Of a stretch of 64,000 bases of DNA, positions 38,493 through 57,696 are shown one piece after another. The notes beneath the pieces are model-generated. The model did no database searches. It had not been told where the DNA came from and saw only the letters and a list, made by a program, of their open reading frames with translations. This DNA comes from Allomeiothermus silvanus DSM 9946 (lineage in GTDB: Bacteria; Deinococcota; Deinococci; Deinococcales; Thermaceae): the NCBI RefSeq assembly GCF_000092125.1, contig NC_014212.1:1-64000 (forward strand), read 5' to 3'. Every line of letters begins with the position of its first letter. The stretch's first letter is position 1. Position numbers and translations under genes: made by a program.

Positions 38493-40691
38493 ATGCACAC
38501 TGTTCTCAAGGTTGCCCTTCCGCTGCCCTTGGATCCTATGTCCTACCGCCCTCCGCACGGGGATGGGCGCGAGGCTTTGGGGCGGCGGGTGGTGGTGCCT
38601 TGGCGCGGCGAACTGCGGGTGGGGATCGTTACTGCGGTGGAGCCCGATAGCAAGCAGGCTTTTGCCCTGCGCGAAGCCGTGGCCTACCTGGACGAGTACC
38701 CTTGGCTACGGCCGGAAGAACTGGGTTTCTTGCACGCCGCGGCGCGGGACCACTTTTGCCCCTTGGGTACGCTACTCGACGACCTCTTGCCGTTCCTCGA
38801 GCCCCCCCTCGCGCACCGGGTACGGCTAGTGTCAGGAGCTTCGCCCGGCGTACTCCCGGCGGGAATGGGGGATCTGCTGGAGTGGCAGGAGGCCCGGGGC
38901 TACGACCCTCGCCTCCTGGATGCGCTACGCGAGGCCGGGGTACTGGAGGAAGAGGTACGCGAGGATCGCCCGGGTCGCAAATTCCTGATCCCGCTGCGCG
39001 AGCCCGATCCGAGCCTCTCCGCCAAGGCCCAGGCGGCTTTGCACGCCCTGCTCGAGCTGGGCGAGGCCCCCAGCATGGCCGAGCTGGCCCGCCAGGCGGG
39101 GGTTGGGCCGGGGGTGATCAAGACCCTGCTGGACAAGGGCTATGCGGGTTGGGAGGAACGCGCGCTCGAGCCGCCGCCCCGCCCTCTGGGGAGCCCCCTG
39201 GAACCCCTCACCCTGCCCGAGATCCCGGCCCGGCTCAACGGGGGCCGCTTCCACGACCGCTTGCGGCTTTTGGCCGGGATTATAGCCGAGGGCCCGACCC
39301 TGGTCTTGTTCCCCGAGGTGGCCCTGCTTAAGCGCTGGCTCGAGTACTTCCCCCAGGCCCAGCCGTTTCACGGGGAACTCTCCGCTGATCTACGGCGGCA
39401 GGAGTTCCCCAAATTTCGCGGGGGCGGGGTGGTTTTCGCCACCTACCAGGGCCTTCTGCTCCCTTTCACCCCTCGGCGGATGGTGGTGGTGGAGGAAGCC
39501 AGCGAGGCCTACAAGCTCTCGGCGGGTTCGCGGGCCCATTGCGTGCGCCTAGCCGAGGGCCGCGCCGAACTTTTGGGGGTTCCCCTCACCTACTGCTCCC
39601 AGGTACCCAGCGTGGAAACCCTGGAGCGGCCTGGGCTGGCCTTTCCCCCGCCTAAGCCGCGCGTGCACCTGCTGAACCTGAACGAGGAGCGGGGTTACCC
39701 CTTGAGCGGGGCCGCGGTGGCGTTGCTGCGCCAGGTGGAGGAGAAAAAGCGCCAGGCAGTGGTGCTGGCCCATCGCCGGGGGTATAGTGCGGTCTTGCGC
39801 TGCCACCACTGCGACTGGAAGGCCATGTGTTCCAACTGCGCGGTGCCGATGCGCTACCACAAGAGCGCCCGGGCCGTCCCGCGGAGCCTGCATACCCGGG
39901 CTGGAGCATTAATCTGTCACCAGTGCGGGCTCGAGCAGATGGCCCCCCAACTCTGCCCAAAGTGCCAATCGGAGGTGTTCGACTTTCAGGGACCCGGGGT
40001 GGAGTGGGTGCAGGACGAGCTGAGGAAACACCTGCCGGGCTTACCCCTGTTCCGCTACAGCGCTGAGTTCAAGGACGACCTAAGCCCGCTGCTGAGCGGC
40101 CAGCCGGGGGTGCTGGTCGGGACCACCGCGGTATTGCGGGCCCCGGTGCTGCCCGAGCTGGCTCTAGTGCTTTTACCCTACGCCGATGGTTTCATATTTG
40201 AATCGGACTTTCGCGCCGCCGAGCGCTACCACCGGCTGTTGTGGCAGCTCACCGAACTGCACCCCCGCCGCCGCCCGCTCATCGCCTTGCAAACCTTCGA
40301 ACCCGCTCACCCGGCCCACGAGGCCCTGCAGGCCGGGGACCCGGAAGCCTTTCCCCGCAGCGAGCTGGCCTTGCGCCAGGCCCTGGGCTACCCGCCTGCC
40401 AAGCGGATGCTCAAACTCGAGGTGAGCCACGTCAAGGAGCCGGTGGCCCGCGACGCAGCGAATCAGCTAGCGTTGGCTTTAGCCCCTCGGCTCGAGCCTG
40501 GGGAGATGCTCGGGGCTGGCCCGGTCCCCGCGCCGATCCCGCGGGTGCGTAACCAATTCGTGTTCCACCTGCTGCTGCGCGGCACCACCGAGCGGCTGCG
40601 CGAGCTGATTCGCGACCTGCCCCATATCCGCGGGGCTCGAGTGCGTTTGGACCCCGACCCGCAGAGCTTCGTGGGGCTGCTCGAGGACTGA
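38493..40691 (+). CDS. priA: Primosomal protein PriA, predicted pseudohelicase
   Basis: PriA recognises stalled forks and reloads the replicative helicase. The 732 aa protein has the N-terminal DNA-binding domain (VALPLPLDPMSYRPP) and a winged-helix region. The zinc-binding insert keeps eight cysteines: CHHCDWKAMCSNC, then CHQC and CPKC. But the Walker A loop normally GxTGSGKT is absent (the stretch reads LLAGIIAEGPTLVLFPEVALL), and the DEEH box is replaced by VVEEASEAYK. Later helicase motifs are also weakened (LVGTTAVLRAP in place of GTQM). Deinococcus radiodurans PriA is reported to be inactive as a helicase for the same reason. Structural and loading roles probably remain. Confidence 0.93.
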   Translation: MHTVLKVALPLPLDPMSYRPPHGDGREALGRRVVVPWRGELRVGIVTAVEPDSKQAFALREAVAYLDEYPWLRPEELGFLHAAARDHFCPLGTLLDDLLPFLEPPLAHRVRLVSGASPGVLPAGMGDLLEWQEARGYDPRLLDALREAGVLEEEVREDRPGRKFLIPLREPDPSLSAKAQAALHALLELGEAPSMAELARQAGVGPGVIKTLLDKGYAGWEERALEPPPRPLGSPLEPLTLPEIPARLNGGRFHDRLRLLAGIIAEGPTLVLFPEVALLKRWLEYFPQAQPFHGELSADLRRQEFPKFRGGGVVFATYQGLLLPFTPRRMVVVEEASEAYKLSAGSRAHCVRLAEGRAELLGVPLTYCSQVPSVETLERPGLAFPPPKPRVHLLNLNEERGYPLSGAAVALLRQVEEKKRQAVVLAHRRGYSAVLRCHHCDWKAMCSNCAVPMRYHKSARAVPRSLHTRAGALICHQCGLEQMAPQLCPKCQSEVFDFQGPGVEWVQDELRKHLPGLPLFRYSAEFKDDLSPLLSGQPGVLVGTTAVLRAPVLPELALVLLPYADGFIFESDFRAAERYHRLLWQLTELHPRRRPLIALQTFEPAHPAHEALQAGDPEAFPRSELALRQALGYPPAKRMLKLEVSHVKEPVARDAANQLALALAPRLEPGEMLGAGPVPAPIPRVRNQFVFHLLLRGTTERLRELIRDLPHIRGARVRLDPDPQSFVGLLED

Positions 40692-54884: not shown

Positions 54885-54942
54885 CGCCAGCTTGTTAGCT
54901 CGAGCGTTGAGCATTGGGCGGTTTGCGTATAGCCTAGGGGCT

Positions 54943-55986
54943 GTGCGCCTTTTGCGCTTGCGGCAGACCCACTTTCGCAACCTGAAGTCCCCAGAGTTCG
55001 CGCCTGCGCCGGGGCTCACCACGGTGGTGGGCGGTAACGCACAGGGCAAGAGCAACCTGCTCGAGGCCATCTACCTAGCCCTGGGCGGCGAACTCAAAAA
55101 CGGTCTCTCCGACCGGATCGCTTTCGGACAGACCGAGGCTTGGGTCTATGCCGAGGTAGAGACCCAGTTTGGGCTGAGCCGCCTGGAGAATAAGCTCTCC
55201 CTACCTCGCCCTGGCACACCGGGGGGCCGCGAATTGTGGCTCAACGAGACGAGCGCTAGCCTCAAGGAGTTTGCCCAGCTGCCGGGGGCAGTGCTGCTAG
55301 GGCCGGATGATTTGGATCTGGTGCTTGGCCCACCGGAGGGGCGCCGCCGCTTCCTTGACTTGCTGTTATCGCGCTTCTCTGCCCGTTACCGCGCGGTGCT
55401 CTCGGCGTATTCGCGGGCTTTGCAACAGCGCAATGCCCTGCTCAAAATGGGCGGCAAGGGGCTCGCGGTGTGGAACGCCGAATTGGCCAAGTACGGCACT
55501 GAGATCCTCAGCCTGCGGCGGCGGATGCTGGGGAAGCTTTCCCCGCTGGCCCGCGAGTCGTACCGCGAGCTGGCCCCTGGCGAACTCCACCTTGAGCTGG
55601 TGGAAACCACCCCACCCGACGAATTTTTACCCGCCCTCGAGGACACCGTACAACAAGACCTCGAGCGCGGGGCAACCAGCATCGGCCCACACCGCGACGA
55701 TCTGGCGATGCGCTTGGACGGGCGCGACGCCTTGAAGTTCGCTAGCCGCGGCGAAGCCCGCTCGATCGCGCTGGCCTTGCGCCTGGGCGAGCATCGCCTC
55801 TTGTGGCAGCACTACGACGAGGCTCCGCTCTTGCTGGTGGATGAGTGGCATACCGAACTTGACCCACGCCGCCGAGGGGCCCTGCTCAGCTATGCCCAGA
55901 GCCTGCCTCAGGCCATCCTGGCTGGGCTCGAGGCCCCCCCGAATGGGGGGGAAGTGGTCTGGATCGAAGCCGGGGTTTGGAGCTGA
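54943..55986 (+). CDS. recF: DNA replication and repair protein RecF
   Basis: RecF is an ABC-type ATPase that with RecO and RecR loads RecA at gaps. The 347 aa form starts at GTG 54943 (VRLLRLRQTHFRNL); an upstream TTG start (54892) would add 17 residues unlike the family. Walker A is VVGGNAQGKSNLLEAIYLA; the signature is degenerate (FASRGEARSIALAL); Walker B is LLLVDEWHTELDPRRRGALL. FRNLKSPEFAPAPGLT at the N-terminus is typical. recF is commonly beside dnaN but here lies about 52 kb away, near a DciA-type gene. Confidence 0.96.
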   Translation: MRLLRLRQTHFRNLKSPEFAPAPGLTTVVGGNAQGKSNLLEAIYLALGGELKNGLSDRIAFGQTEAWVYAEVETQFGLSRLENKLSLPRPGTPGGRELWLNETSASLKEFAQLPGAVLLGPDDLDLVLGPPEGRRRFLDLLLSRFSARYRAVLSAYSRALQQRNALLKMGGKGLAVWNAELAKYGTEILSLRRRMLGKLSPLARESYRELAPGELHLELVETTPPDEFLPALEDTVQQDLERGATSIGPHRDDLAMRLDGRDALKFASRGEARSIALALRLGEHRLLWQHYDEAPLLLVDEWHTELDPRRRGALLSYAQSLPQAILAGLEAPPNGGEVVWIEAGVWS

Positions 55987-56880: not shown

Positions 56881-57696
56881 ATGGCTAGGCGCAGTTCCAA
56901 CGTCCACCGGCCTGCCGAACTTTTGGGAAAAGTCCTCAAGACCCACGGCCTCGAGCACGGCTTCAAGCGGGGCAAGGTGCTGGCCCTTTGGCCCGAGATA
57001 GCCGGGGAGATGCTGGCCCAGATGAGCGAGGCGGCTGCGCTCGAGGAGGGCGTGCTCTTGGTTTACGTACCCGATTCGGCGGCAGCCTTTCACCTCAAAT
57101 TTCAGCGTGAGGAATTTCTCAAGCGCTACGAGAAACGCCTGCCTGGAGCCGTAAGCGACATTCGTTTTCGAGAAAAGCGCTTTGCCCGCAAGGGCACCGG
57201 CAAGGTCCAGGCGGCCCCTCTGCCCCCCCTCTCCCCCGAGGAGGAATCGCGCCTGCGGGCTTTGGCCGATAAGACCACCGACGAGCTCAAGGCTGCTGTG
57301 TACCGGGCGGCCCGAGCGGTCTTGCAGCGGCAGAAGCTCTCGCCACACCCTCCTTGTATGATCTGCGGCTCGCCCGAACCTGAGAACCCCTGCAAAAGCT
57401 GCCAGCGCCTCCTGGAAGACCCCGCTGTGAAGCGCGAGGCAGGTCGGCTCACCCGCAAGCCGCTCCATCCCAGGCTCGAGGGTGAACCCCTCCAGGCGGC
57501 CAAATATCTGGCACAGATGCGGCTCGAGGCCCAGCTCCGCGAGTTGCTCCCGCAAGTAGTCAAGGAGCCCGATTTGGTAGCGGTCTTGCAGGATACGGCC
57601 CGCCGTTACCTGCAACTTCGCTCGGGGCAGTCCGAAGTCAGACCCTACCTCCACCTCCTCCCCGAGACCTTGCGACAATTCCTCAAAGAGCTTTAG
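56881..57696 (+). CDS. DciA-like (DUF721) protein with zinc-ribbon extension
   Basis: DciA is the ancestral loader or assistant of the DnaB replicative helicase in many bacteria. The N-terminal ~95 residues match DUF721: PAELLGKVLKTHGLEHGFKR, LWPEIAGEMLAQM, and a strand region VLLVYVPDSAAAFHLKFQ. A C-terminal extension of about 170 residues includes CMICGSPEPENPCKSC, a likely CxxC-x8-CxxC zinc ribbon, then helical segments to the end. Total 271 aa, longer than a usual DciA (about 150). The location close to recF agrees with the recF-dciA arrangement of other bacteria. Confidence 0.75.
   Translation: MARRSSNVHRPAELLGKVLKTHGLEHGFKRGKVLALWPEIAGEMLAQMSEAAALEEGVLLVYVPDSAAAFHLKFQREEFLKRYEKRLPGAVSDIRFREKRFARKGTGKVQAAPLPPLSPEEESRLRALADKTTDELKAAVYRAARAVLQRQKLSPHPPCMICGSPEPENPCKSCQRLLEDPAVKREAGRLTRKPLHPRLEGEPLQAAKYLAQMRLEAQLRELLPQVVKEPDLVAVLQDTARRYLQLRSGQSEVRPYLHLLPETLRQFLKEL

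Follow-up and report, generated by a model that had tools for sequence, protein, structure and literature searches.

The window (the whole stretch of DNA analysed, 64,000 nucleotides, bases 1-64000 of a 3,249,394-base contig) contains a priA gene that starts with ATG and has a reading frame of 732 codons, open across exactly the interval given in Table 1, as well as dciA, which follows a recF-like gene at 54892-55986 and is not in one operon with priA. PriA helps bacteria to restart stalled DNA copying; it is nearly universal and as a rule keeps its helicase motifs. The product of the gene described here, the only PriA match returned by a genome-wide search of the 3.72-Mb genome, has the domains by which a PriA is recognised, namely the 3' DNA-binding domain (3'BD), the cysteine-rich zinc region and the C-terminal domain (Pfam PriA_3primeBD, Zn_ribbon_PriA and PriA_C), with all eight zinc cysteines in place (residues 437, 440, 446, 449, 475, 478, 488 and 491; 8/8), and neither a DEAD nor a Helicase_C domain was found by Pfam in the 732 residues. 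Against TIGR00595, the PriA helicase equivalog, the protein scores 201 bits, below the curated cut-off of 230, which is reached in just 20 of the 111 phylum genomes. The overall PriA fold is predicted by an AlphaFold2 model (mean pLDDT 91, from an alignment of 51 phylum sequences), the best matches of which, by Foldseek and VIA-align, are the PriA crystal and cryo-EM structures 8fak, 4nl4 and 6dgd (8fak_H: Z 28.8, 582 residues aligned, 3.4 Å; Foldseek E 1e-43). The preliminary description of this locus had stated that the eight zinc cysteines and the DNA-binding parts are kept, as is indeed the case, and had named a second full-length PriA as a possible explanation for a lost motor; none was found in the genome.

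Table 1. Coordinates of priA, its domains and motif sites, and dciA in the window
Feature	Position	Strand	Evidence
priA, 732-aa PriA with dead motor (predicted pseudohelicase)	38493..40691	+	ORF, Pfam, NCBIfam, structure matches
PriA 3' DNA-binding domain, residues 6-100, kept	38508..38792	+	PF17764 E 5e-15; 35% identity to E. coli
Walker A site (motif I), GGRFHDRL (250-257) vs E. coli GVTGSGKT	39240..39263	+	alignments
Walker B site (motif II), VEEA (V333-E334-E335-A336) vs E. coli DEEH	39489..39500	+	alignments
Aromatic-rich loop remnant, GSRAH (345-349) for GWRYH	39525..39539	+	alignment
Motif III site, CSQVPSVE (368-375) vs E. coli GSATPALE	39594..39617	+	alignment
Motif IV, HRRGY (427-431), kept	39771..39785	+	alignment
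Cysteine-rich region, eight zinc Cys (437-491), kept	39801..39965	+	alignment, 64/64 Deinococcota
Motif V site, GTTAVLRAPVLP (543-554) vs E. coli GTQMLAKGHHFP	40119..40154	+	alignment
Motif VI site, QLTELHPR (585-592) vs E. coli QVAGRAGR	40245..40268	+	alignment
PriA C-terminal domain, 637-723, kept	40401..40661	+	PF18074 E 7e-10
dciA, predicted DnaB loader/partner, downstream of recF-like gene	56881..57696	+	PF05258 E 5e-17

DciA, which we infer to be a candidate working partner of the window PriA, is encoded in 85/86 phylum genomes of at least 90% completeness, and in several genomes of one genus (g3) its gene lies ~4-9 kb from priA. The window DciA (271 aa) bears a CxxC...CxxC motif (CMICGSPEPENPCKSC) C-terminal to the DciA domain, a similar motif (CPVC...CRHC) is present in the DciA of a relative from family f4 (L123), and zinc binding by DciA may be characteristic of Thermales. 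No members of the DnaD/DnaB_2 and PriC families were found in the genome. A 254-residue DnaC/IstB-like AAA+ protein (C1:543995-544759; L135:496-1260), with the Walker A sequence GPPGVGKT and an N-terminal Cys cluster, adjoins a TnpB-like gene and is possibly a mobile-element helicase loader.

Helicase motifs in the window PriA and across Deinococcota

Aligned with E. coli PriA, the window protein has lost motifs I, II, III and VI, motif V is degraded and motif IV is kept, so that the features of an active SF2 DNA helicase (Walker A GxxGxGKT, Walker B DExH, motif III SAT and the motif VI arginines) are absent, the GRAGR arginine motif of motif VI included. In the aromatic-rich loop the G and R are retained and the W and Y lost. 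The position of E. coli K230 is occupied by R256, with a 5-residue deletion close by, and VEEA stands for DEEH; with motifs I and II both degenerate, the protein matches the sequence description of a pseudohelicase (Lopper, Boone and Morrow, 2015). The preliminary description, in which Walker A and DEEH were reported missing, was therefore right, the loss being larger than it had supposed. Both strings that it quoted are present, and VVEEASEAYK was rightly placed at the DEEH site, but LLAGIIAEGPTLVLFPEVALL (LLAGIIAEG..., residues 259-279), placed at Walker A, aligns to the end of the post-P-loop helix and motif Ia (E. coli LVMVPEIGLT), a misplacement that leaves the pseudohelicase conclusion unaffected. 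RecG and Mfd from the same genome retain GDVGxGKT, DEEH and QLRGRVGR, and the motif loss is thus specific to PriA.

A PriA match was obtained in all 111 Deinococcota genomes searched, and 68 Deinococcota PriAs, the window protein among them, were read at the level of individual motifs; they represent five families and 31 genera, and a few are incomplete at contig ends. Wherever the sites were covered, none of the 68 has a functional motif I, II, III or VI. Given that all 68 show the loss and that the motifs of RecG and Mfd are intact, the loss is due neither to chance nor to sequencing error. All 68 are accordingly predicted to be motor-dead, which sustains the earlier proposals of a pseudohelicase and of a trait of the phylum.

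Residue counts were taken from an alignment of 64 near-full-length Deinococcota PriAs, in which the eight zinc cysteines are complete in every sequence (64/64). At the Lys230 position 63 sequences have Arg and the remaining one Ala; G224 never varies, a second Gly comes after it in 63 sequences, and position E321 is acidic in 64/64. Erosion of motif II is graded, from E-D/E-E-G or similar (families f2 and f3) through VEEA or VEEG (Thermaceae, the window's own family, f1) to E/D-A-A-S or the like in a large part of f5. The 5-residue deletion beside the P-loop site is common to Thermaceae and the sister family f4; it aligns just after R256, with a helix of the model starting at residue 253, although its exact register is unsure. 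The idea that the P-loop itself had been deleted in Thermaceae is weakened by families f2, f3 and f5, in which K230 is Arg and the distance between G224 and the proline of motif Ia is largely that of E. coli. In a scan of named genomes with a Deinococcota profile, titled matches came only from this phylum (Meiothermus, Thermus, Calidithermus, Trueperaceae and unclassified members); that scan gave no Deinococcus-titled record, and no Deinococcus sequence was identified among the PriAs compared. Scans of viral contigs returned no relatives.

Competing explanations and the proposed role

It is unlikely that the genome encodes a second, active PriA, or a helicase dedicated to replacing it, that has taken over the motor role. 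Whether some helicase opens gapless forks in the phylum, and which, is a question raised before (PMC4504706), and the genome encodes, besides Mfd, a RecG whose motifs are intact and a UvrD/PcrA-type helicase that has kept its Walker A, to which the DnaC-like AAA+ protein described above may be added; yet a single PriA was found, and helicases such as RecG, Mfd and UvrD are widespread in bacteria, so that finding them is not in itself proof of replacement.

An alternative in which the window PriA has a remodelled pocket of non-canonical form and can still bind or hydrolyse ATP is very improbable. Conservation of Arg at Lys230 and of the acid at E321 does argue against free drift at these positions, but neither the two later glycines of the P-loop nor Thr231 remain, motif III and the arginines of motif VI have been lost, the Walker B Asp is missing from most sequences, and the K230R substitution alone abolishes the ATPase of E. 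coli PriA (a precedent cited in PMC4504706), while D. radiodurans PriA has no measurable ATPase activity (PMC4504706).

The motor lobes of the window protein are 23-31% identical to those of E. coli and Bacillus PriA, compared with 45-46% between the latter two, whereas window-E. coli and E. coli-Bacillus identities are 35% and 36% in the 3'BD, 34% and 42% in the zinc region, and 25% and 17% in the C-terminal domain. By this measure decay is limited to the motor lobes, the other three regions having no such drop against E. coli. In comparisons within two genera of Thermaceae, every PriA domain has a dN/dS of 0.11-0.27, which indicates that priA is under purifying selection and, judged by these ratios, a constrained pseudoenzyme and not a decaying gene. 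A decaying pseudogene with no function left is hardly credible, since, for all the divergence of its motor lobes, priA is an open reading frame in the sampled genomes, is constrained in every domain, has its eight cysteines in all aligned sequences and occurs in every genome searched.

Very probably, then, the sole PriA is kept as an ATP-independent pseudohelicase, a scaffold that binds forks for the reloading of DnaB without unwinding. Abandoned or repaired forks would be recognised through the 3'BD, the zinc region and the C-terminal domain, and PriA would recruit or hand over DnaB, probably together with DciA, without ATP or DNA unwinding. Restart would take place where the lagging-strand template of a fork already has a single-stranded gap or, alternatively, once another motor, for example RecG or a UvrD-family helicase, has opened the lagging arm; the DciA partnership and any stand-in helicase are parts of the scheme that we infer. 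In such a protein the Arg and acid conserved at the two Walker sites may form a fixed contact that holds the empty pocket.

Two docking sites differ from those of E. coli. The G37 column of the 3'BD pocket is Gly in 9/10 active PriAs and R or Q in 64/64 Deinococcota sequences, and recognition of the 3' end may therefore be altered in Deinococcota PriA. Trp 83, which together with other residues we take to form the SSB-Ct pocket of enteric PriA, is present in 8/10 active PriAs and is not among the common residues of its column in Deinococcota; as this pocket is not conserved in the window PriA, recruitment to SSB-coated forks may differ from that of the enteric protein. The W83 and G37 differences are leads only, hinting at changed docking.

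Origin of the loss and relation to known systems

Among the outgroup PriAs, which were drawn from E. coli and from plasmid-collection records, the helicase motifs are kept in 10 sequences from Pseudomonadota, Bacillota, Bacteroidota and one cyanobacterial plasmid, and are absent in three from Actinomycetota (Tsukamurella, L111:1940-3931; Nonomuraea, L118; Microbacterium, L119:1989-3911). In the Microbacterium protein, five or more of the eight zinc cysteines are missing too. In a 48-sequence tree the Deinococcota PriAs form one clade (100/100). The active PriAs fall on one side of this tree with a support of 97/96 when all columns are used, a grouping for which long-branch attraction is a real risk; the support is 73 with the motifs removed and 21 with the 3'BD, cysteine-rich region and C-terminal domain only, values that fit one loss shared with Actinomycetota as well as two separate ones. 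It is conceivable, though rather unlikely, that the motor-dead PriAs of Deinococcota and Actinomycetota go back to a single ancient one, and that both phyla, with DciA as the DnaB partner, restart replication by an ATP-free route; the conserved Arg and acid would in that case be a structural lock retained on the empty ATP pocket, and not debris.

Actinomycetota PriA (PRK14873) is likewise without recognisable helicase motifs and is still annotated as primosomal protein N'; its UniProt entries presumably carry a caution on the missing motifs. It is much more diverged than the window PriA and shorter (640-663 aa where annotated), the window protein scoring 53 bits against PRK14873 versus 220 against PRK05580.

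The closest precedent is D. radiodurans PriA, for which loss of helicase activity had been cited in the preliminary description and is confirmed by the published work: its unwinding is negligible (about 4% versus 56% for E. coli at 10 nM), its binding to ssDNA and forks is near-normal, and it forms a complex with DnaB (PMC4504706). Degenerate Walker A and B boxes were described in 17 aligned PriAs, and the trait was stated for the Deinococcus-Thermus phylum (Lopper, Boone and Morrow, 2015; PMC4504706), so that an extension beyond Deinococcus, put forward as new, had already been made. The central finding is thus correct but mostly known since 2015 (PMC4504706); our literature search found no later paper going further for Thermaceae. 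What the survey adds is breadth, with no exception across five families, and two residues named for testing, R256 and E334. Phyla that restart replication with a motor-dead PriA show that the protein can be retained for recognising forks and recruiting DnaB, and not for unwinding.

The window PriA shares with D. radiodurans PriA orthology, phylum, degenerate Walker A and B sites and the Lys-to-Arg change at the catalytic lysine. The same biochemistry is presumed for the window protein by analogy. The D. radiodurans protein is the one that has been assayed, whereas the window protein is described here from its sequence and a model, and the PriAs of Thermaceae and f4 additionally have the 5-residue deletion next to the P-loop site. 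In comparison with the PriAs of E. coli and Klebsiella (6dgd, 4nl4 and 8fak), which unlike the window PriA have an active SF2 motor with all motifs, and which have DnaT, PriB and PriC as partners and an SSB-Ct pocket, the window protein shares the domain order, the fold, the zinc region, the 3'BD and the C-terminal domain.
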